A stretch of DNA of 35,851 nt, taken from the NCBI GenBank assembly GCA_020721645.1, contig DYMH01000022.1, positions 1 through 35,851 on the forward strand. The letters run 5' to 3'. Origin of the DNA: Draconibacterium orientale. GTDB taxonomy: Bacteria > Bacteroidota > Bacteroidia > Bacteroidales > JAADGE01. Of the stretch, positions 2,989 to 35,609 are shown piece after piece. The notes under the pieces were generated by a model, which was given only the letters and a program-made list of their open reading frames with translations, made no database searches and was not told the DNA's origin. Every line of letters starts with the position of its first letter. Position 1 is the first letter of the stretch. The translations under genes were made by a program, and so were the position numbers.

Positions 2989-4215
2989 TTATAAATTTTC
3001 CATTGCTTTGTCGATTTCATCATTTCCGAAGCTGTCGAGATAAATTTGTGTCGTTTCCGGATTATCATGTCCCATCGCTTCGCTGATGACGTTGGTTGCA
3101 ACACCGCTTTTCTTCAACACGTTCGCAAAAGTATGACGCGCAACATACGTTGTTATCGGAATTTGAATTCCGGCAATATTCCCGATTTCTTTTAAGTCCG
3201 CATTCACTTTCGTAATCACTTTATGAATCCGGTTATCAATTTGAACCGGAGTTTTATGTACGTTTATGTTGAGAATCGGGAAAATATAATTGTTGTAATC
3301 GTGAGCAGTAACTTTGCCGAAATAATCAATTATTTCCTGTGCAGCAGGCACCAATTTAAAGTTGATTATTTGTCCGGTTTTGGTTCGTTTGTATTCAATT
3401 CGGTAATCTTTCATGTCTACATATCTCAACTTCGCAATATCATTAAAATTGATTCCCTGTCCGTAATAGCTGAAAATGAAATACAATCGCGATTCGTATA
3501 AATTCGTACCTGGTTTCAAATCCAAACTTTCAATTTTCTTTATTTCTGCCTTGGTCAATGCCCTTTTTCGTGTTTCTGTGCTGAACTCTGAAATTTTGAA
3601 AGTATCAAATGGATAATTGTCCTTTCTCACAATTCCTTCTTTAATTGCTTTGTTATAAATAGCTCTCAGAGTTCTGAAAAAGAGCGACATTGATGTTTCC
3701 ATGAAATCAATTTGTCGAAGATAACCGGCTAATTGATTTAAAAGTCGAAAGTCGATATCCGTAAAAGATAGGTCTTTGTTCTTCCGGAATCTTTTTAAAA
3801 CACTCAAATTGTGAGTGTAAATTTTTGAATTTCCAATTTTTTTACTTTCAATGAGATTCTTGATTATTTCACGGTAATAGTCAAAAACAGTAATTTTTCT
3901 TTGATTTTTTTCAACTTTTTCAATCAGAGAATCCGAAGTATGTTCTTTGCCCTCTTCTTTCAATTTTGCTATTTCAGAAGTATATTCTGCAATTTTTTTA
4001 CTGACGATTGATTCAATAAAAACTTTGTCCGGATGTTTATCAGTCGGTTTACTTTTTGCGAAGTTCCATCGCTTTTCATCACAAGAAATTCCCAATGATA
4101 AGTATTTTCTTTTACCGTTTTTTGTAATACGCAGCATCAAGGGATGCTCACCATTGGCGAGGGTTTTCGATTTGTAGAGTATAACATTTACGGAGGTTGA
4201 TTTTCTTATTTGCAT
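2989..4215 (-). CDS. Tyrosine recombinase / integrase of the integrated element
   Basis: This 408-residue protein has the usual layout of Bacteroidota integrases. An N-terminal arm-binding domain with LRITKNGKRKYLSLG lies at about 28-43, a SAM-like core-binding domain at about 105-205, and a catalytic domain after about 215. Visible catalytic residues are Arg360 in YVARHTF, His383 in MGHDN and Tyr392 in TQIYLDS, the nucleophile. The usual HxxR is YxxR, which is common in this group. The first catalytic Arg is not at its normal place: the aligned segment is YGQGINFNDIAKL. The CTnDOT integrase also lacks this Arg, and Arg243 in ESRLY is a possible stand-in here. The gene ends the mobile segment and points away from the tRNA-Gly fragment at 4386. 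It should catalyse insertion and excision at that tRNA. Confidence 0.92.
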   Translation of the reverse strand: MQIRKSTSVNVILYKSKTLANGEHPLMLRITKNGKRKYLSLGISCDEKRWNFAKSKPTDKHPDKVFIESIVSKKIAEYTSEIAKLKEEGKEHTSDSLIEKVEKNQRKITVFDYYREIIKNLIESKKIGNSKIYTHNLSVLKRFRKNKDLSFTDIDFRLLNQLAGYLRQIDFMETSMSLFFRTLRAIYNKAIKEGIVRKDNYPFDTFKISEFSTETRKRALTKAEIKKIESLDLKPGTNLYESRLYFIFSYYGQGINFNDIAKLRYVDMKDYRIEYKRTKTGQIINFKLVPAAQEIIDYFGKVTAHDYNNYIFPILNINVHKTPVQIDNRIHKVITKVNADLKEIGNIAGIQIPITTYVARHTFANVLKKSGVATNVISEAMGHDNPETTQIYLDSFGNDEIDKAMENL

Positions 4216-4287: not shown

Positions 4288-4385
4288 TATTATAACAAAA
4301 TGAATATACTTTAAATAACTAATATAAAGCATATTAAAGTAAAATAACGTAGTCGAACAAACTATACAAAACACCCTAAACAAGG

Positions 4386-4428
4386 CTTCCCAAGCTGAGG
4401 GTCGCGGGTTCGAATCCCGTTTCTCGCT
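4386..4428 (+). other. 3' fragment of tRNA-Gly (CCC), attachment site scar
   Basis: The sequence holds the anticodon loop TTCCCAA (4387-4393), the 3' arm of the anticodon stem, the variable loop GGGTC, a complete T-arm (GCGGG, TTCGAAT, CCCGT) and the 3' acceptor strand TTCTCGC. The upstream bases do not pair with it: the anticodon stem 5' arm would need TCAGC but reads AAGGC, and there is no D-arm or 5' acceptor strand. It is therefore the 3' part of a tRNA-Gly gene, not a working tRNA. Integrases that use tRNA genes recreate the full tRNA at one end of the element and leave such a fragment at the other. This places the element to the left, with the complete tRNA-Gly expected beyond base 1. 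Confidence 0.85.
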
Positions 4429-4563
4429 CTTATTCGTTCGGTGAGCAGAAAGTGAATCGAAGTAACAAAAAATAAAAAAAATTTGTCTGGTTCGGTTTGT
4501 CCATAAACTTTGAAAAAAAATTCTTCCCTCTCCTGCAATATTGAACAAATAATGTTATACTCC

Positions 4564-4655
4564 GATTGGTTGATTATTTGATGTGCTGATTTTCTTTAAA
4601 TATCAAATAATTATACAATTTATAAAACGCAATTTACGAATGTGCATAGTATAAA
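4564..4655 (+). repeat. Dispersed ~95-bp repeat, copy 1
   Basis: This stretch matches the inverted copy at 32740-32845. Shared blocks are GATTGGTTGATT, TTTGATGTGCTGATTT, TCAAATA, ACAATTT, TAAAACGCAATTTA, GTGC and TAGTATAA, in the same order. The middle differs in length. It starts with the word family TGATGTGCTGATTTG seen in other gaps. It lies between the attachment scar and the terminator of the receiver gene. Confidence 0.75.
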
Positions 4656-4750
4656 TTCGATTTTACCTTTTTTCGAAAAATTTCAGCTTCGGAGTTTGAA
4701 TACAATTTTTTTTGAACTCAAAATCATATTTTGTGGAAATAATTGTATAA

Positions 4751-4776
4751 AAAAGCTGCCTTTCAAGGCAGCTTTT
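4751..4776 (-). terminator. Rho-independent terminator of the receiver gene
   Basis: AAAAGCTGCC pairs perfectly with GGCAGCTTTT around a 6-base loop. On the minus strand it is followed by further T residues. It lies 10 bases past the stop at 4786 and could also work from the plus side. Confidence 0.85.
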
Positions 4777-4785
4777 ATCCGAATA

Positions 4786-5199
4786 CTAATGCGGCTTGGC
4801 ATCTTCAATCTTTTTGAACGACCTTTCGATATACTTTTTAATGGTTTCATCGAGTTTTTCCATCGAAAAAGGTTTTTCGATAATGCCGTCAAAATTTTCT
4901 TCCTTGTACGTTTGATTGAGATCCGAGGCGTGTTCCCAGCCGGTCATAGCAACTATCGGAATAATGTTTTTTGGATATTTCAGGTTTCGTCGTATGTGTT
5001 CAGTGGTTTCAAAGCCGTTGAGTAAGGGCATTTGAATATCCATCAAAACTAAATCGAAATCTTGGCTTTTGAGTATCAAGACAGCTTCGTATCCATTATC
5101 TGCTGTTTTATATGCGTAACCAAGTGCTTCGAGAATTTCTGAGATAACTTCTCGACTTGGTTCAAAATCCTCAACGACCAATATTTTATATTTCTTCAT
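4786..5199 (-). CDS. Single-domain response regulator (CheY-like)
   Basis: The protein is 137 residues and is almost entirely a receiver domain. The acidic pair Glu10-Asp11, the phosphorylation site Asp54 in VLMDIQMP, Thr86 in VAMTGW and Lys109 in IEKPF are all present, so it should be phosphorylated and act through protein contacts. There is no DNA-binding or enzymatic output domain; residues after about 122 are a basic tail. No histidine kinase is adjacent. The next gene on the same strand is the TPR/SpoIIE phosphatase, but a strong terminator-like hairpin and 477 bases separate them, so they are probably separate transcripts. A functional link to that phosphatase is possible but not shown. 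Confidence 0.93.
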   Translation of the reverse strand: MKKYKILVVEDFEPSREVISEILEALGYAYKTADNGYEAVLILKSQDFDLVLMDIQMPLLNGFETTEHIRRNLKYPKNIIPIVAMTGWEHASDLNQTYKEENFDGIIEKPFSMEKLDETIKKYIERSFKKIEDAKPH

Positions 5200-8080: not shown

Positions 8081-8086
8081 GTTTTT

Positions 8087-8175
8087 CAATTGACAATGGA
8101 CAATTGAAAATGGATAATGTTTGAGCAAAAACAGGTTTTCCTGAATTGTCAATTTTCCATTGTCAATTGTCAATT
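8087..8175. repeat. Inverted word-repeat pair (TTGACAATGG family)
   Basis: Between the four-helix gene stop and the cytochrome b-like start there are two arrays of the same word. On the plus strand the left arm (8089-8117) reads AATTGACAATGGACAATTG and similar, and the right arm (8146-8175) is its near-complement. They can fold back on each other. The right arm contains the stop codon of the four-helix gene. Confidence 0.8.
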
Positions 8176-8519
8176 TTTTTAGACGTTTTTATAATTGAAG
8201 TTAATAATTTTAGTAATTCTTTTAAATCCGATAAAATTGAATTATAACTTTTTTCATCAATAAATTCGGAATGAAAAAGGAGTTCGATCCAATATTCGGA
8301 TTCGTTCACCTCTTTTAACGAAATTGCTAATTTATGAATAAAATCTGCTTTACTTTCAGCCTGTTCACTTTCACGAATTAATGCTCCGACTGAAGTCCCG
8401 GAACGAAGTAATTGTTTCGACAAAACATATTCTTTCTTTTCTTCACTCAAATATTTGTATAACTTTACAATACGCAAAGCAAAATCAAACGACTTTTCTT
8501 TTACATCATTTTCTTTCAT
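8163..8519 (-). CDS. Four-helix-bundle protein (23S intervening-sequence-protein family)
   Basis: I choose the ATG giving MKENDVKEKSFDFA (118 residues). A TTG eight codons upstream lies in repeat DNA. The order SFDFALRIVKLYKYL, KQLLRSGTSVGALIRESE, ADFIHKLAISLKE and EYWIELL is typical of the small four-helix-bundle family first seen in 23S rRNA intervening sequences and related to Avd accessory proteins. It probably forms an oligomeric, nucleic-acid-binding bundle; its role as a stand-alone gene is not known. The last residues KKIDN and the stop come from the word repeat. Repeats of the same family lie on both sides, and the gene interrupts the heme block, so it looks like a small cassette inserted there. 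Confidence 0.9.
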   Translation of the reverse strand: MKENDVKEKSFDFALRIVKLYKYLSEEKKEYVLSKQLLRSGTSVGALIRESEQAESKADFIHKLAISLKEVNESEYWIELLFHSEFIDEKSYNSILSDLKELLKLLTSIIKTSKKIDN

Positions 8520-8540
8520 CTCAAATTCATTGTTATTTTT

Positions 8541-8572
8541 CAATTGTCAATTATCCATTGTCAATTGAAAAC
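8541..8572. repeat. Word repeat at hemG 3' end
   Basis: CAATTGTCAATTATCCATTG and the following TCAATTG form an internally complementary array. On the minus strand it gives the last residues SIDNG and the stop of HemG and continues to just before the four-helix gene. Confidence 0.8.
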
Positions 8573-9927
8573 TGTGCCAACTCAAATGCTTGTTTTATGC
8601 GGTCTGCCATTCCGATTCCGTCTCTGAGATTTCCTCCTATTTGTAAGCCGTGATTTTCTTTTTGCAAGCGTTCAACCATTTCAAATCGCTCGCCCGAATC
8701 TTTCAAATATTGAGGTATTGCACGTTCGTGCTTCCAAACAACAAAAAGCGATGGTTTGAAATTCGTAATCTGCATCAAATCTTTCACTTCTTTTTCGACC
8801 AAAGATTTTATTTCAGCTTCCGACAAATCGACCAAATGACCTTTGCGAACGCCGCCCACGAAAACCGTAATCAATGCACCGCCTTTCGGAGCACGATTTG
8901 CAAAAAGCGATGAAAGAAACATCACTCCCAAAATATCGCGGTTTTCTTTGAATGGTATCAAGCCGCCGAAACCGTCAATCGAAATGCCTTCCCAGGTGTC
9001 GAAACCAAGAATGACTTCTGCTGTTTTTGCATAAAATAGTGTTGAAATGGGTTTGATTTCAGCTTCCGAAATAAAATCGAAAATTCCCGGCAATTCGTAA
9101 GCGGGAATTGTGGTGATGATATTTTTTGTTCGATATTGATATTCTGTTTCTCCGGAATTTCCGCAAACAAGATATTCCGTCCCGTTTTTCGTAATTTTCA
9201 ATCCAGAACAATTTAGTATGATATTTTCTTTTCCTACGGATTTTTCCAAAGCAAAAATCAAAGACGATAATCCGCCTTCTGCTGAAAATACTTCGCGTGT
9301 AGCTTTTTTTTCGCGTTCCGATTTTTTCTCTTTTGCTTTTTTTATCGTTCCGCCGATAAAACTTCCGTAATTTTGTTCGAGATTGTATAATTTGGGTAAA
9401 GCGTATTTTGTTACCAAAATATTTGGGTCGCCGGCATATACGCCGAGAATAAACGGATCGACGGCATATTCGAGAAAACTCAATCCCATACGACGTTTCA
9501 CCATTTCAGCCAAAGTTTCGTGCGGATCGGTTCCAGGTTTTCGGAACGGTTCGCCCAAAATGCGGAGTTTGTCGCTAAAGCGAAAAAGTGGCGTTCGTAC
9601 TCCGCCGATGAGTCCACCGGGCAAGAGTTCCCATTTTCCGTTTTTCAGAATAAATCGTTTGTTTACGTTTTTGTCGGCGGGAACTAATTTGCATTTTCCG
9701 TCCAATTCCTCGAATAATTCAACGACTTCCGGAGTTCCCAAAACGCCGGTGTTCGGTCCTTCTTCGTAAACAAATTCACCTTTTACGGCAGTATGTATAA
9801 CGCCTCCGACTCTGTCGGATTTTTCGATGACTACGAAATCTTTGTTCTTAATTTTTAAACGAAGGGCTGTCGTCAAACCGGTGAGTCCGGCTCCGATTAC
9901 TACGACTTCTTTATATGTTGGTTGCAT
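8551..9927 (-). CDS. hemG: Protoporphyrinogen oxidase (HemY type, FAD-dependent)
   Basis: The protein has 458 residues from the ATG giving MQPTYKEVVVIGAG. An in-frame extension to 10050 is rejected because it translates a word repeat (HFLIFTFPHFLIF). The FAD-binding VVIGAGLTGLTTALRL starts at about residue 9, and the acidic end of the second strand with DRVGG follows at about 35-42. The C-terminal FAD motif GNLRDGIGMADRI is present. It should oxidise protoporphyrinogen IX to protoporphyrin IX, the last step before iron or magnesium insertion, as a membrane-associated enzyme. Also known as hemY. It follows hemN. Oxygen is the usual acceptor for this type, which contrasts with the oxygen-independent HemN upstream. 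The last residues are repeat-encoded. Confidence 0.93.
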   Translation of the reverse strand: MQPTYKEVVVIGAGLTGLTTALRLKIKNKDFVVIEKSDRVGGVIHTAVKGEFVYEEGPNTGVLGTPEVVELFEELDGKCKLVPADKNVNKRFILKNGKWELLPGGLIGGVRTPLFRFSDKLRILGEPFRKPGTDPHETLAEMVKRRMGLSFLEYAVDPFILGVYAGDPNILVTKYALPKLYNLEQNYGSFIGGTIKKAKEKKSEREKKATREVFSAEGGLSSLIFALEKSVGKENIILNCSGLKITKNGTEYLVCGNSGETEYQYRTKNIITTIPAYELPGIFDFISEAEIKPISTLFYAKTAEVILGFDTWEGISIDGFGGLIPFKENRDILGVMFLSSLFANRAPKGGALITVFVGGVRKGHLVDLSEAEIKSLVEKEVKDLMQITNFKPSLFVVWKHERAIPQYLKDSGERFEMVERLQKENHGLQIGGNLRDGIGMADRIKQAFELAQFSIDNG

Positions 9928-12571: not shown

Positions 12572-12645
12572 ATAGTACCACAAAGGGTTTCGCAAAGGAA
12601 CACGAAGTCCGATTGTCAATTATCCATTATCAATTGTCAATTGTT
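12572..12645. repeat. Word repeats between hemL and hemE
   Basis: Two word families meet here. Next to the hemE start is CACAAAGGGTTTCGCAAAGG followed by AACACGAAG. At the hemL end is the TTGACAATTGATAATGG family, internally complementary, which encodes the last hemL residues LTIDNG and its stop. Confidence 0.75.
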
Positions 12646-13924
12646 TCAACGCTTCCAAATTTTTCGCCAAAACGGTTTTCAAGATTTCGTCGGTGTGTGC
12701 TGCTGAAACAAAAGCTGCTTCGTATTGCGAGGGTGCCAAATAAATTCCGTTTTCCAAACACAAACCGAAATATTCGGCATATCTGCCGGCATTGGATTTC
12801 ATTGCATCTTCGTAGGAATTAATTTCTTTGAGATCGGTGAAAAACAGTGTCATTATTGAGCCTGCACGATTTATTACGGCGTTGATTCCGGCGGTTTTCA
12901 AGTTTTCTTTGATACCTTTTTCCAAAAATGCGGATTTTCGTTCGAGTTCGGAATAGAAATCCGGAGTTTCGTCCAATATTTTCAACATTGCCAATCCGGC
13001 AGCCATTGCAAGCGGATTTCCGGAAAGTGTTCCGGCTTGATAAACAGGACCGGCGGGAGCCAGCTTTTCCATAATTTCTTTTCGTCCGCCGTAAGCTCCG
13101 ACGGGCAATCCGCCGCCGATAATTTTTCCGAGTGTTGTTAAATCGGGCATAATCCCGTAATATTCTTGTGCTCCGCCTTTTGCCAAACGGAAACCGGTGA
13201 TGACTTCGTCAAAAATCAAGAGTGCTCCATGTTTTTTGGTCAAATCACGCAAACCTTGTAAAAATCCTTTTTGAGGAAGCACAACTCCCATATTTCCGGC
13301 AACGGGTTCCACAATGACGGCTGCAATTTGATCTTTGTGTTCTGCAAACAATTTTTCTACGGAAGCCAAATCGTTGTAACCTGCAATGAGCGTGTCTTTA
13401 GCTGTTCCGGAAGTAACGCCCGGGCTGTCGGGCAAGCCGAGCGTAATGGCACCCGAACCGGCTTTAATCAGAAAGCTGTCTGCGTGTCCGTGGTAGCAAC
13501 CTTCGAATTTAATAATCATTTCTCGCCCCGTGTATCCGCGTGCGAGGCGTAATGCACTCATTGTGGCTTCGGTTCCCGAATTTACCATTCTAACCATTTC
13601 TACGGACGGAACCATTTTGATGATTTGTTCGGCCATTCGGGTTTCGGCTACCGTGGGTGCTCCGTAGCTTGTACCGTTGTCGGCGGCTTTTTTTATGGCT
13701 TCGATTACGGCATCGGGTGCGTGCCCGAGAATCAGCGGTCCCCACGAACCGACGAAATCAATATATTGATTATCATCCTCATCAGTAATGTAAGCTCCTT
13801 TTCCGCTTTTAATAAAAATCGGATTGCGTTTGACGCTTTTAAATGCTCTTACCGGAGAATTGACACCGCCGGCTATGATTTCTTTTGCTTTTGAAAATTC
13901 TGAAATGCTTTTATCTAAATTCAT
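12620..13924 (-). CDS. hemL: Glutamate-1-semialdehyde 2,1-aminomutase
   Basis: The 434-residue PLP enzyme has the expected family length. [10 protein letters not shown] near the N-terminus, [15 protein letters not shown] at about 115-129, CYHGHAD at about 143-149, [10 protein letters not shown] at about 237-246 and the PLP lysine Lys267 in [11 protein letters not shown] are all present. It turns glutamate-1-semialdehyde into 5-aminolevulinate, the second step after HemA in the C5 pathway. This shows the organism makes its own tetrapyrrole precursor from glutamyl-tRNA. The C-terminal LTIDNG is not conserved family sequence but the translated end of a word repeat. Confidence 0.97.
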
Positions 13925-17730: not shown

Positions 17731-17855
17731 TATTTAATGGATAATGGACAATGGATAATGGACAAAGGATAATGGACAATGGATAATGGATAATGGATAA
17801 TGAAAAAAAATTGATAATAATTTATTTTTTTCTTGATACTTGATACTAATTCAAA
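17731..17855. repeat. Tandem word repeat between hemA and hemC
   Basis: From 17734 the plus strand repeats ATAATGGACAATGG units of 7 or 14 bases about eight times. After an A-rich stretch comes CTTGATACTTGATACTAATT, which on the minus strand contains the hemA stop codon. This is the most regular tandem array in the window. Confidence 0.85.
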
Positions 17856-20557: not shown

Positions 20558-20672
20558 TTTACTGATGTGTTGATGCCTTGATTTGTTGATGTGCTGATTT
20601 GAAGGTTTGTGATGATGTGTTGAAAAATTCCACATTGTCAATTGTCAATTATCAATTGTCAATTATCAATTA
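20558..20672. repeat. Word repeats between response regulator and kinase
   Basis: Next to the kinase start the plus strand reads GATGTGTTGATGCCTTGATT and GATGTGCTGATTTG; next to the response-regulator stop it reads TTGTCAATTGTCAATTATC and onward. Two word families thus meet in one gap, and the latter contributes the TAA stop of the regulator. Confidence 0.8.
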
Positions 20673-27216: not shown

Positions 27217-28134
27217 TTACATTTGGGGGACTATTTTTGTTTTTCGAACAAAAGGTCTATGTTTGAAATTCAAACTATCAAAAATATCCTTTTGGTCTTT
27301 TGTTGGTCTTGTGCATAATTTAATGTAAAGTTTTTCATTTTTATCGTTATTTACGCTTACGATTGAAGATTGCATTGTGCACATTTTTTCCACAATTGTT
27401 GTCCAACCGTGTTTTATGTTGCTTTCTTTGAGCTGTATTCTGATATATTTAACTACCTGATAAGCAATTATTCCCAACCAAATATGAGGTTCTATAAAAG
27501 CGTCTTTCTGATGATAGATTGGTCTTATGTCGAGGTCTGTTTTCAGAGTTCGGAACACGGATTCAATGTCTCGTGTCATATTATATATTTCCCAAACATC
27601 TGCCTCTGATATTGCTTCATGGGTATATCTCAAAAAATATTCTCCTTTGGGACGTTCTTTTTCTTTTTTTCTTGTCCAATTAATATCTGTAACTACATCA
27701 TTTTCTTTGTCTTCGGTGTAGGATATTTCGTACAAATAGCCAACTTTGGACAATTTTTCTTTTATTCTGCCGATTTTTTCGTGTACTTTTCCAATTTTCT
27801 TTACCGAATTTTTATGTGATAATTTTTCTTTTATTTCCTGTAATTGAAGCTCTAAACGTTGGCTCAATTTGTCGTCTATCGACTGTTCTTTTTTCCGTTT
27901 TTCTTCGCTTTTTATGTGTAAAAAATGACCTTCTTTACCCGTTACCGACACTTTTGTAAGTTCTATTTTGTTGCCCCTGTTGTCTGTAACTGTCAGGTTA
28001 TCTGATAATTTAGTATATTCTTTTGGCGTTGTCCGACTTACGCAAACATAGTCGTAATTAAACTTGTTGCCCCGCTCACCGTAGAATGTTTCAAACTGAA
28101 CAGCTCGGCGAAGTTTTCCGCAGCGTAACTTCAT
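27217..28134 (-). pseudogene. IS1634-like (IS4-group) transposase, C-terminal remnant
   Basis: Only about the last 305 residues of a transposase normally of 500-600 residues are present. I count it from the Met giving MKLRCGKLRRAV; codons further upstream (to 28233) do not look like transposase. The C-terminal catalytic Glu lies in TRDIESVFRTLKTDL, followed by RPIYHQKDAFIEPHIWLGIIAYQVV, the typical IS1634 block. The two catalytic Asp residues of the N-terminal half are missing, so it cannot be active. No clear terminal inverted repeats are seen. Imperfect CTTCG/CGAAG hairpins between 28140 and 28360 lie on the truncated side. It marks the left border of the methyltransferase operon. Confidence 0.85.
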
Positions 28135-28445
28135 CGTTTTTGTATCCGAAGTTTTAAACTTCGTTGCACAGCAAAAGAGTAAAGACCGGTTGCTTTTCGA
28201 TACCGAAAATTTTTGATAATATTGTATCGGCAAAAATGAAAACGATATATCAACCTGTTATCAAATTTCGGAACAAAAATGCTTCGCATCGAAGTCAAAG
28301 ACTTCGGAAAGAAAATTCGACGGAGTTACGCATTCGCTAAACTTCGCCGAGGGGCTGTCGTTCAGTTTGCGGAAGAATCCTGTGTGTAAGGGTGTCTTTG
28401 TTTTAATAAGTTATTAACAGCGTTATTTTTTGCTAAATAATGCAG

Positions 28446-31651: not shown

Positions 31652-32641
31652 TTAGGGCGTTTTCCCATCTCGAATATCGTTTCCCTTTTTTCGGCTTTCT
31701 TCGAGTTTTTTCGAATATTCGCCGTGTACTTCTTTCATTTCTTGGTGAAAATATTTTTTCCGTCCTTGTTCTTCTGTTTCAAATTGGGATTCTTCTTTCG
31801 GCAGTTCGGGCTGAACGGGCGGCGGGTCTTCGATAAATTCGCCGGTTCTTCGGTTTCGCAAAATTACACGAAGTGCCTGCACCAATTTATCGGGTGTAGT
31901 AATTGCCGTGGGCTCTACTTTCAACTTCGGAATTTCGGTTATCACTTCCAAATAATCGCTCGACATATTGGTAATTTTCAGATTTTTGAATCCTCCGACT
32001 GTCGATTCCGGATCGTCCGCCATTTTTTTATCCAAAACGCCGCCGTCGTTTCGCACCGACGAAATATCATCGAAAAAATATTCGTTGGTTTTTATGCCTA
32101 ACATTTTCATATTCAACCAATCGAATGTGCAGCCAAAATAACTGATAAAATGTTCGGTGAGCACCAAAACCTGTACATTCCAAACGGTGTAGAGATACGA
32201 CTCGTCGCCCCCCATACGTCGCAACATAAATTCGGGTTCAATGCCGGGCGTGTCCCAAAAAACGGGTACCGGAATCAAAATAATGTTTTCGGCTTTAATT
32301 TTGGAATCGTTGATTTTCAAAAATTCGAGGGCTTTCTTCTTCACGGCTCCGTGAATATCTTCTTTCAGCCATTCGTCCATATCTTCATCGAACGGTCGCA
32401 AATGATACAAACGCCGCGTTTTGAAATACGGATTCATCCATAATCGCAGAACTGCGAAACCCAATAATATCATTCCGGTAGCCGCAAAGATAATGTTTTG
32501 AAAATATAACAAAGTCTGCATTAAGAGCAGGAAAAATCCCAAACCAATAATTACAAAACCGGTTTTCGCAAGCCAATTGACTTTGGGAATTTTTGGAGGA
32601 AATATTCTGAAATAGATATCAATGAGTTGTTTTTTGTCCAT
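31652..32641 (-). CDS. Two-TM protein of unknown function
   Basis: The protein has 329 residues. After a short cytoplasmic start (MDKKQLIDIYFRIFPPKIPK) two membrane segments lie at about 25-43 and 46-66. A soluble domain follows with RRLYHLRPFDEDMDEWLKED, a beta-rich middle (ESYLYTVWNVQVLVLTEHF, DWLNMKMLGIKTNEYFFDDI) that resembles a membrane-bound pleckstrin-like sensor in layout only, and a highly charged, Pro- and Glu-rich C-terminus (about 265-329) that is probably disordered or coiled coil. I do not recognise the family. It is downstream of valS in the same direction, but 334 bases of repeats separate them. Confidence 0.75.
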   Translation of the reverse strand: MDKKQLIDIYFRIFPPKIPKVNWLAKTGFVIIGLGFFLLLMQTLLYFQNIIFAATGMILLGFAVLRLWMNPYFKTRRLYHLRPFDEDMDEWLKEDIHGAVKKKALEFLKINDSKIKAENIILIPVPVFWDTPGIEPEFMLRRMGGDESYLYTVWNVQVLVLTEHFISYFGCTFDWLNMKMLGIKTNEYFFDDISSVRNDGGVLDKKMADDPESTVGGFKNLKITNMSSDYLEVITEIPKLKVEPTAITTPDKLVQALRVILRNRRTGEFIEDPPPVQPELPKEESQFETEEQGRKKYFHQEMKEVHGEYSKKLEESRKKGNDIRDGKTP

Positions 32642-32739: not shown

Positions 32740-32845
32740 TTATACTAAGCACGGTCATAAATTGCGTTTTACAAATTGTTTAACTATTTGACATTATCAG
32801 CAATTAAAAAATCAACAAATCAGCACATCAAAAAATCAACCAATC
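32740..32845 (-). repeat. Dispersed ~95-bp repeat, copy 2 (inverted)
   Basis: Read on the minus strand this is the partner of 4564-4655: GATTGGTTGATT, TTTGATGTGCTGATTT, then TCAAATA, ACAATTT, GTAAAACGCAATTTA, GTGC and TAGTATAA. The conserved right half (about 50 bases) has only scattered mismatches. It lies in the gap between valS and the two-TM gene, with no open frame. Confidence 0.75.
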
Positions 32846-32945
32846 AAAGTATAGTTGTCATATATAAAATTATTAACCGAATCAATCAAAAAAAACAACA
32901 GAATCTTTTAATTCCCTAATAATAATATCATTGCATTAAAAAAAC

Positions 32946-32990
32946 CTTACATCTACTCATCAAAAAATCACCGCATCAACTTCTCAAAGA
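32946..32990. repeat. Word repeat at the valS 3' end
   Basis: The plus strand reads TCATCAAAAAATCACCGCATCAACTTCTC in two words; on the minus strand the array starts with the valS stop TGA (AGTTGATGCGGTGATTTTTTG). Confidence 0.7.
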
Positions 32991-35609
32991 ATTAATTTGC
33001 TCTTTCAAGGCTTTGATTTTCGATTCGGCATCGGCTTGTTTTGCTCGTTCTTTGGCAATTGTTTCGGGCGGAGCTCCGTTCACAAAACGTTCGTTCGAAA
33101 GTTTTTTAATTACCGATTCCAAAAATCCTTGTGCGTAGTCGAGTTCTTTTGTCAGTTTTTCGAGTTCTTTTTCAACATCAATCACATCGCCGAAAGGCAC
33201 AAAATATTCGGTTTGTTTTACAACGAATTGTACTGCATTTTGGGGTTTTTCGGTAATATTTGTAATTTCTTTTGCGTTACCGAGTTTCATAATCAAATCA
33301 TCGAAAACAGAATCGTATTTTCCGTCTTTTGAGCTGTAATATACAGAAAGACTTTCTTTGTTCGGCAGATTTTTTTCTTTGCGTATATTTCTCAGTTTGC
33401 TGATGATTTCTTGTGTCTGTTCAAACTTTTCTAATATTTCACTGTCGTATTTTTCGGCTTCCGGAATTTGGCAAATCATAATGCTTTCGCCGGATTTTCG
33501 TTCTTTATGGTTTTGCCAAATTTCTTCGGTGATGAACGGCATGAACGGATGCAGAATTTTCAACATCGTATCGAAAATTGTTTCAACAGCTTCATAGGTT
33601 TTTGCGTCCATCGGCTGTTGATAAGCCGGTTTTACGGCTTCGAGAAACCACGATGAGAAATCGTCGCGGAAGAGTTTGTAAACCGTCATCACGGCTTCCG
33701 AAATTCTAAATTCATCGAATTGTTTGTCGATTTGTTCCAGTGCTTGGTTTAATTTATTATTGAACCATAAAACAGCTTTTTCGGCAGAATCGGGTGTCTG
33801 AATTTTTGTGTCGATTTCCCAACTTTCGATTAATCGGGCTGTATTCCAAACTTTATTTGCGAAGTTGCGACCTTGTTCGGGCAAACTGTCATCGTAGAGC
33901 AAATCGCCTCCTGCCGGCGAACAGAGCATCATTCCGATACGCACGGCATCGGCTCCGTATTTTTCAATCAACATAAGCGGGTCGGGCGAATTGCCGAGTT
34001 GTTTCGACATTTTTCGTCCCTTATCATCGCGAACCATTCCCGTAAAATATACATCTTTGAACGGAAGTGTTCCTCGATATTCGTAGCCTGCAATAATCAT
34101 TCGGGCAACCCAGAAAAAGATGATGTCGTGTCCTGTAACCAACAAATTTGTAGGATAATAATAATTAATGTCTTTGTTTTCGGGATTTCGGATTCCGTCG
34201 AAAACCGAAATAGGCCAGAGCCACGATGAAAACCATGTGTCGAGAACATCTTCATCGCGGCGTAAATCATCGATTTTCAGATTTTGATTTCCGGTTTTCG
34301 TTTTAGCTTCTTCCAAGGCTTTTTCGGGCGAAGCGGCAACCACAAAATCGTTTCCGCCCGGAAGATAATACGCCGGAATGCGTTGTCCCCACCACAATTG
34401 ACGAGAAATATTCCAATCGCGGACGTTTTCCATCCAATGACTGTATGTGTTTTTGAATCTCTTTGGAGAAAACAGAATCGTATCATTTTCAACGTTTTCG
34501 ATTGCCGGTTTTACCAATTCTTTCATTTTCAAAAACCATTGCATCGATAGTTTTGGTTCTATCGGAACATTGGTTCGCTGCGAATAGCCGACACGATTTG
34601 TGTAATCATCGATTTTTACGATATGACCTTGTTTTTGAAGTTCTTCGGTGATTTCTTTTCTAACCACAAATCGGTCTTTTCCTACGTATAATTCGGCTTT
34701 TTCGCTGAGAGTTCCGTCATCGTTAAAAATATCAATGGAAGGCAAATTGTATTTTTGTCCTATCAAATAGTCGTTTTCATCGTGTGCGGGTGTTATTTTC
34801 AAGGCTCCGGTTCCGAACTCTTTATCGACATATTCATCAGCAATCAAAGGGATTTCTCGGTTCAATAGAGGAACGAGCAAAGTTTTTCCGTGCAAATGTG
34901 AGTAACGTTCATCGGTCGGATTTACGCACACTGCCGTATCGCCCAAAATAGTTTCGGGACGTGTGGTGGCGATTGTTACATATTCTTCGGAACCTTTAAT
35001 TCTATATCGGATGTAATAGAGTTTCGAGCGTTCGTCTTTGTATTCAACTTCTTCATCGGAAACGGCGGTTTTGGCAGTCGGATCCCAGTTTACCATTCGC
35101 ACACCCCTGTAAATCAATCCTTTTTTATATAAATCGACAAAAACAAGAATAACGCTTTCGTACAAATCATCATCAAGTGTAAATTTCGAGCGGTCCCAGT
35201 CGCACGAACAACCGATTTTTTTAAGTTGTTCGAGAATTATACCGCCGTGTTTGTGCGTCCATTCCCAAGCATGTTCGAGAAATTTTTCGCGTCCGATGTC
35301 GAATTTCGAAATGCCTTCGTCTTTCAATTTATTAACAACTTTTGCTTCGGTTGCAATTGAAGCGTGGTCGGTGCCCGGAACCCAGCAGGCATTCATGCCT
35401 TTCATGCGTGCACGGCGAATCATAATATCCTGAATTGTATTGTTCATGATATGCCCCATGTGCAACACGCCGGTAACGTTCGGCGGCGGAATTACAATTG
35501 TAAACGGCTTACGTTTGTCGGGTTCGGAATGAAAAAGTTTGTTTTCGTGCCAATATTTATACCATTTATCTTCGGTTTCGGCGGGATTGTACTTTGCGGA
35601 TTGACTCAT
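32976..35609 (-). CDS. valS: Valyl-tRNA synthetase
   Basis: The 877-residue class I synthetase has the usual length. The HIGH motif is HMGH at 50-53 in PPNVTGVLHMGH, and the KMSKS motif is KMSKQ at 533-537. The editing domain is recognised by ATTRPETILGDTAV at about 214-227, and NWDPTAKTAVSDEEVEY and VARMIIAGYE are typical. Residues about 810-877 form the C-terminal coiled coil that holds the tRNA. It charges tRNA-Val in the cytoplasm. Its stop codon lies in a word repeat and word-like DNA also precedes its ATG (35610-35632). A promoter-like pair lies upstream. It is a housekeeping gene and marks return to the core genome right of the defence operon. Confidence 0.98.
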   Translation of the reverse strand: MSQSAKYNPAETEDKWYKYWHENKLFHSEPDKRKPFTIVIPPPNVTGVLHMGHIMNNTIQDIMIRRARMKGMNACWVPGTDHASIATEAKVVNKLKDEGISKFDIGREKFLEHAWEWTHKHGGIILEQLKKIGCSCDWDRSKFTLDDDLYESVILVFVDLYKKGLIYRGVRMVNWDPTAKTAVSDEEVEYKDERSKLYYIRYRIKGSEEYVTIATTRPETILGDTAVCVNPTDERYSHLHGKTLLVPLLNREIPLIADEYVDKEFGTGALKITPAHDENDYLIGQKYNLPSIDIFNDDGTLSEKAELYVGKDRFVVRKEITEELQKQGHIVKIDDYTNRVGYSQRTNVPIEPKLSMQWFLKMKELVKPAIENVENDTILFSPKRFKNTYSHWMENVRDWNISRQLWWGQRIPAYYLPGGNDFVVAASPEKALEEAKTKTGNQNLKIDDLRRDEDVLDTWFSSWLWPISVFDGIRNPENKDINYYYPTNLLVTGHDIIFFWVARMIIAGYEYRGTLPFKDVYFTGMVRDDKGRKMSKQLGNSPDPLMLIEKYGADAVRIGMMLCSPAGGDLLYDDSLPEQGRNFANKVWNTARLIESWEIDTKIQTPDSAEKAVLWFNNKLNQALEQIDKQFDEFRISEAVMTVYKLFRDDFSSWFLEAVKPAYQQPMDAKTYEAVETIFDTMLKILHPFMPFITEEIWQNHKERKSGESIMICQIPEAEKYDSEILEKFEQTQEIISKLRNIRKEKNLPNKESLSVYYSSKDGKYDSVFDDLIMKLGNAKEITNITEKPQNAVQFVVKQTEYFVPFGDVIDVEKELEKLTKELDYAQGFLESVIKKLSNERFVNGAPPETIAKERAKQADAESKIKALKEQINSLRS

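Follow-up and report, generated by a model that had tools for sequence, protein, structure and literature searches.

A Probable TA-Targeting MITE Family with an Internal Octamer Array in a Draconibacterium orientale Genome

Introduction

What kind of sequence lies behind two similar, oppositely oriented segments of roughly 100 bp in a 35,851-nucleotide stretch of DNA (hereafter the window; contig DYMH01000022.1 of assembly GCA_020721645.1) from Draconibacterium orientale? A first-pass annotation, made from the letters alone, had proposed either a candidate non-autonomous mobile element or a conserved structured RNA. The window is contig C182 of its own genome, G000, a 285-contig draft of 3.83 Mb that is 97% complete. 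On the evidence below, the segments are very probably copies of a MITE that is moved in trans by a TA-specific transposase and works like the RUP, Correia, and ERIC repeats of other bacteria.

Results

Two copies in the window

The two distant copies and their inverted arrangement were confirmed. An end-to-end alignment has 86 identities in 98 aligned bases, 12 mismatches, and 15 gap bases, with a score of 64.1. When one copy was shuffled 2000 times with its dinucleotides preserved, the scores averaged −0.9 (s.d. 4.0) and reached at most 12.1, so far below the real score that the likeness cannot be attributed to chance. The words TAAAACGCAATTTA and TAGTATAA, previously reported as common to the pair, are found in both copies. 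The limits first proposed, 4564-4655 and 32740-32845, were at most 10 bases off the true ends (Table 1); in copy 2, the right end (32741-32770) and the left end (32826-32853) each match the respective end pattern with 0 mismatches. The word TGATGTGCTGATTTG does occur with each copy as claimed, although it belongs to an internal array of octamers of the form YTGATNNN and does not adjoin the element. Since it is also present in a free-standing array, it is not exclusive to the MITE.

Table 1. Coordinates of the element copies and octamer arrays in the window
Feature	Position	Strand	Description
MITE copy 1	4556-4653	+	98 bp, TATACT to AGTATA; pattern and HMM matches, sharp ends
Octamer array inside copy 1	4562-4593	+	CCGATTGG TTGATTAT TTGATGTG CTGATTTT; direct reading of the sequence, regex match 4570-4593
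MITE copy 2	32741-32853	-	113 bp, TATACT to AGTATA; subfamily A with extra octamer units
Octamer array inside copy 2	32808-32847	-	5 units
Octamer array without element ends	20562-20601	+	5 units; no TATACT in the surroundings; repeat search of the window

Both copies are intergenic, as had been noted. Copy 1 is flanked by genes for a tyrosine recombinase (2989-4215) and a response regulator (4786-5199), and copy 2 by a gene for valyl-tRNA synthetase (32976-35609) and a 329-aa ORF (31652-32641) that has no Pfam match. Among ORFs of at least 80 aa, copy 1 is touched by a single mechanical one, at 4642-5025 (+), and copy 2 by none. Copy 1 is a member of subfamily A in which some letters of the left end resemble B. 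By the logic of an empty site at another locus, the outer TA at both of its ends is read as a target duplication and positions 4558-4651 as the mobile core.

The tyrosine recombinase gene near copy 1 adjoins a sequence that resembles a tRNA 3′ end (4381-4429, GGGTTCGAATCCCGTTTCTCGCTC), which is possibly the attachment site of an integrated element. ARAGORN detects no whole tRNA at this position, and no second copy of the sequence is present in the window or in the other 231 loci.

Family size and subfamilies

The element is not confined to this pair. A BLAST search of G000 with copy 1 returned at least 43 matches when 40 of its 198 first-look candidates were scored. With up to 3 mismatches allowed, the left-end 28-mer is found at 104 places and the right-end 30-mer at 60, and the reversed control of each gave 0. 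Profile HMMs found 113 whole or partial matches over the fetched loci; 23 of these are partial or interrupted, some being halves of one interrupted copy, and were excluded from the full count. Of the remaining 90 full-length copies, 68 fall into subfamily A and 22 into B, and all occupy distinct sites since no flank is common to any two of them. The genome holds about 100 copies with common, sharp ends, contrary to the refuting case set out in the first-pass annotation, in which the pair would stand alone and lack shared boundaries.

Two classes of subfamily A, with 13 and 6 members, are letter-identical, and this degree of identity speaks for recent spread. It appears that a TA-specific MITE multiplied in a recent burst within a Bacteroidota lineage. 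The orientation of the ends relative to the contigs, which should be arbitrary, is uneven in G000 (18 forward and 42 reverse for right ends, 37 and 67 for left ends). GC skew does not explain this, as element-oriented flanks of the 90 copies have a mean skew of −0.0001 (s.e. 0.004) and reveal no replication-strand bias.

Ends and octamer array

Copies of both subfamilies start with TATACT and end with AGTATA, a perfect inverted repeat of 6 bp that continues imperfectly inward, such that 11 positions (A) or 14 (B) out of the first 22 agree between the two ends. Terminal inverted repeats (TIRs) are therefore present, though short and imperfect. The left end is TATACTYTGATTGGTTGATT; read on the opposite strand, the right end is TATACTAAGCACGGTCA in subfamily A and TATACTAAAAACGGTT in B. 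In condensed form, the left and right ends are TATACTnnnnnnGGTTnATT and TATACTAAnnACGGTYA, respectively. A perfect repeat of 6 bp is short for a classic MITE and counts against the preferred reading.

The YTGATNNN units begin directly after the left end and vary in number, with gains and losses of whole octamers visible in the alignments. These cover 46 of the 49 distinct A sequences (L037, L042, and L128 excluded) and 21 of the 22 B sequences (L172 excluded) together with one copy from genome G086. Full copies span 84-113 bp, and 81 of the 90 fall into the length classes of 105 bp (70 copies), 97 bp (9), and 113 bp (2), the other 9 being 84, 98, 104, 106, or 112 bp long. Subfamilies A and B have common ends and a common layout but differ in their right half. 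Octamer arrays without element ends also occur in a relative (L064, G019).

An octamer array inside a MITE accounts for some of the dispersed word repeats that the first-pass annotation had recorded. The window also contains ATTGTCAATTATCCATTG-like dispersed words, at 8081-8573, 12612-12650, 17735-17821, and 20626-20664, which are apparently unrelated to the MITE.

Filled and empty sites

In a collection of genome contigs from which G000 itself was possibly excluded, the right-end pattern has a sole match, DYSM01000318.1 (L086), a contig of a metagenome-assembled genome labelled Draconibacterium orientale isolate SulCav that contains locus L061 (G006:C211). On one flank of the element, this contig aligns to G000:C243 with 99.57% identity over 3002 bp, and on the opposite flank with 96.7% over 183 bp. 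The element is present in DYSM01000318.1 and absent at the matching G000 site, which is the sole large difference in the stretch compared. The filled allele is 103 bp longer than the empty one, including one TA duplication: the junction of the empty allele reads GGGCATC-TA-AATAAAATCAGATGCCC, whereas the filled allele has TA on both sides of TACT...AGTA. Insertion therefore goes with duplication of TA. Mobility is shown by this presence/absence polymorphism between near-identical strains, and a strain-level pair recovered from metagenome assemblies fixes both the limits of the element and its target. The earlier proposal of a non-autonomous mobile element is well founded, given the multi-copy dispersal, the sharp common ends, and an exact empty site that reveals the duplicated TA.

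On direct reading of the sequence, the TA of the empty allele sits in the loop of a terminator-like hairpin. Because the hairpin is intact there, the sequence suggests that the empty allele is ancestral. At a second site, G006 contig L066 compared with G000:C75, the filled allele again has one more TA. The right flanks are 98.6% identical, but the left flanks are only 82% identical and lie in a broken gene piece, so this site is weaker evidence.

DYSM01000318.1 looks like DNA of the window's species, or of a strain nearly identical to it, that was binned into another assembly. The SulCav bin (G006) is listed with 7% contamination; its contigs L061, L086, L066, and L068 carry the repeats of G000, with flanks 98.6-99.6% identical to those of G000 in two cases. 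Judged by these matches, the bin seems to be contaminated with the window's lineage.

Target preference and genomic context

The preference for TA extends across the family. Among the 88 of 90 full copies used for target statistics, TA is found at the left end of 84 and at the right end of 80, and its absence from the other 4 and 8, respectively, is read as later mutation. Outside the TA, 64 of 88 copies have A at −3 and 46 have T at +3, a weak palindromic preference, and no duplication longer than TA was seen by eye in the printed flanks. Targeting of hairpin loops was rejected as a rule, with a mean flank complementarity of 4.67 in the 88 copies compared to 4.55 ± 0.14 in 200 re-pairings. 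A complementarity of 9 or more is reached by 4 copies (null mean 0.9, maximum 4), and a few copies may sit in palindromes.

Gene context was assessed for the 74 copies with flanks of at least 700 bp. Nearly all (70) lie between crude ORFs, while 2 overlap an ORF and another 2 lack one on one side. The neighboring genes are arranged in tandem on the same strand (27) or in tandem on the opposite strand (21), convergently (13), or divergently (9).

Distribution beyond the genome

Among 393 genomes of the order, a set that does not include G006, only G000 is rich in the element: the left-end pattern occurs 96 times in G000 and once each in G086 and G315. When the best 2 candidates per genome were considered across the same 393 genomes, the B consensus detected one full copy outside G000, in G086 (another family, 84% identical), and octamer-part matches in G147, G155, and G235. 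The A consensus, with at most 22 candidates scored in each of 40 genomes, detected full copies in G000 and G006 and only interior or octamer fragments in G011, G019, and G032. The TIR pattern was matched 75 times in G000, twice in G006, and once each in G005 and G008 among 21 genomes of the family. Since its reversed control also gave 4 matches (in G002, G003, and G009), the single matches are chance-like. Plasmids and phages yielded weak partial matches only (E at least 0.07, none covering 80% of the query), and viral contigs gave 0 matches for two patterns.

The transposase and a proposed mechanism

At its length, the element would encode no enzyme. Instead, a DDE transposase that recognizes its ends and targets TA would cut and paste it in trans. 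The enzyme may have been lost, may be unassembled, as the genome is a draft, or may have ends too diverged for recognition. The array of octamers that adjoins the left end may consist of iterated transposase-binding sites or represent a passenger minisatellite, and the array would shift in length in 8-bp steps via slippage or unequal exchange.

Of the features that mark MITEs mobilized by IS630/Tc1-mariner transposases, the TA target duplication was found, but a resident IS630-type transposase with matching ends was not. The DDE_3 family (PF13358, IS630/mariner) has 0 matches in G000, and the control search was positive in 3 of 14 genomes. DDE_Tnp_1 (PF01609) has 4 matches in G000. These four loci (2.2-3.6 kb) were rejected as the autonomous partner because TATACT is on one strand only or absent; on direct reading, one of them (C264) has other TIR-like ends, ACTGTCCACTT...AGTGGACACT. 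No large element with the ends of the MITE was recognized by eye when the listed left ends were compared with A-type right ends and the 360 bp from the left ends were read in 20 regions. The left ends in these 20 regions lead into full copies and into copies of about 254, 324, and 333 bp that contain other small repeats. Copies without a right end are found in L119 (minus strand), L131, and L134, and those in L103 and L121 are cut by the contig end. The left-end sequence TATACTnnnnnnGGTTnATT can serve as bait for the missing transposase, and the ends expected on an autonomous partner are TATACTnnnnnnGGTT.

A different TA-targeting system is conceivable, with the array as the iterated binding site of an enzyme outside both IS630/mariner (DDE_3) and the DDE_Tnp_1 proteins seen here. 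The probability of this arrangement is low. If it were true, the free-standing octamer arrays in G000 and its relatives would be remnants or decoys of that system.

The window also contains a 338-aa ORF at 27217-28233 (-) with a sub-threshold DDE_Tnp_1 match of 18.4 bits and no Pfam match at E 0.001, which is perhaps a worn insertion sequence.

Alternative explanations

The other possibility raised at the outset, a conserved structured RNA or cis-regulatory element such as a leader or small RNA located at the many loci it regulates, is unlikely and retains a very small probability. The mostly intergenic location would suit it, as would a plausible internal hairpin in subfamily A, compensatory change in 3 of 11 B pairs, and a B consensus that folds as RNA better than shuffles (z −2.8), although this last value can arise from the inverted ends alone. 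Set against these are a consensus fold of A with 7 pairs and 0 compensatory changes across 46 copies, a folding strength of A that does not exceed that of shuffles (z −0.5 to −1.2), and a z of only −1.25 for B as DNA. The B pairs themselves are weak, with a consensus energy near zero over 22 rows (21 from G000 and 1 from G086). No Rfam match is present in the window, the neighboring genes are in mixed orientation, and the polymorphic insertion with its TA duplication contradicts this reading.

Two kinds of repeat could also be invoked. Palindromic repeats of the REP/BIME type, spread by a RAYT (a Y1 tyrosine transposase), are likewise short, mostly intergenic, and present in about 100 copies. 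REPs are palindromic hairpins that are not known to carry a TA-type duplication, however, and the TIR-like ends and TA duplication seen here make this assignment scarcely probable. The second kind is a non-mobile tandem or minisatellite word family, in which the octamer array would be the real repeat and the remainder hitch-hiking. Octamer arrays do occur alone in the window and in a relative (L064, G019), and the B consensus matches G155, G235, and G147, from three other families of the order, only at its octamer part (positions 8-45). Yet the conserved unit runs about 60 bp past the array to a fixed right end in 60 copies, and the empty site lacks both ends as well as the array, which leaves this explanation scarcely probable as well. 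A TA-specific MITE remains the preferred reading.

Other repeats of the genome

The TATACT element is not the only abundant dispersed repeat of G000. Another, about 155-160 bp long and bounded by sequences such as ATGAGTTCAGTTTAAAAAGT...CTTGGCTCAT, is present at L066:32-183 and in at least 29 places in G000 (e.g., C175:465-635 and C111:40884-41045), representing 29 of the 46 matches listed, with 40 of 272 candidates scored. It was not found in the window. In L102, L144, and L179, no more than about a dozen bases separate an end of this repeat from a TATACT element. Copies of the TATACT element in L116, L117, and L118 are split by further small repeats, of which one has GGGCATC...GATGCCC ends and an apparent TTAT duplication and another starts with AAGTAAYCGGACAGATTT. 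G000 therefore seems to contain several MITE-like families nested in one another.

Comparison with known systems

The literature search found no paper that unites octamer repeats with Bacteroidetes, and the papers on TATACT/AGTATA inverted repeats of insertion sequences include none on Bacteroidota by title. The comparisons that follow rest on descriptions in the consulted portions of the cited papers.

Among TA-flanked repeats, the pneumococcal RUP is, like the present element, non-autonomous, with a length of about 107 bp, 108-110 copies, a short TIR, TA termini, and a target duplication (PMC2229807, PMC3049150). The ends of RUP resemble those of the resident IS630-Spn1, whereas no such partner was found here. 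Correia/NEMIS elements (about 105-107 bp or 155 bp) likewise have TA termini and pairs of filled and empty sites, but their TIR measures 24 bp compared to a perfect 6 bp and a longer imperfect repeat in the present element (PMC2229807).

ERIC/RU-1 is described with TA at both termini, a target duplication, and a 7-bp TIR (PMC2229807). A Salmonella RU-1 copy starts with tatact and ends with agtata, the same six outer letters as the present element (PMC2759123), a coincidence that can be due to chance. ERIC/RU-1 differs in being 127 bp long and enterobacterial, in its interior, and in the lack of an octamer array in the printed copies (PMC2759123). The consulted portions of PMC2229807 and PMC2759123 name no mobilizing enzyme for it.

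Within the Bacteroidota, BrickBuilt and MITE464/PgRS of Porphyromonas gingivalis are MITEs that, as here, contain internal tandem repeats. Their units are 23 or 41 nt long, their TIR is IS5-like (GAGAC...), and their duplications vary in length, in contrast to the 8-bp units, TATACT ends, and TA of the present element (PMC4596501). The IS982-derived MITE of Cardinium offers a parallel for lineage-specific spread within one genome, with the difference that its parental IS is known (PMC9769881). The element of the window is best placed as a new family within a known kind of mobile DNA, the MITEs.
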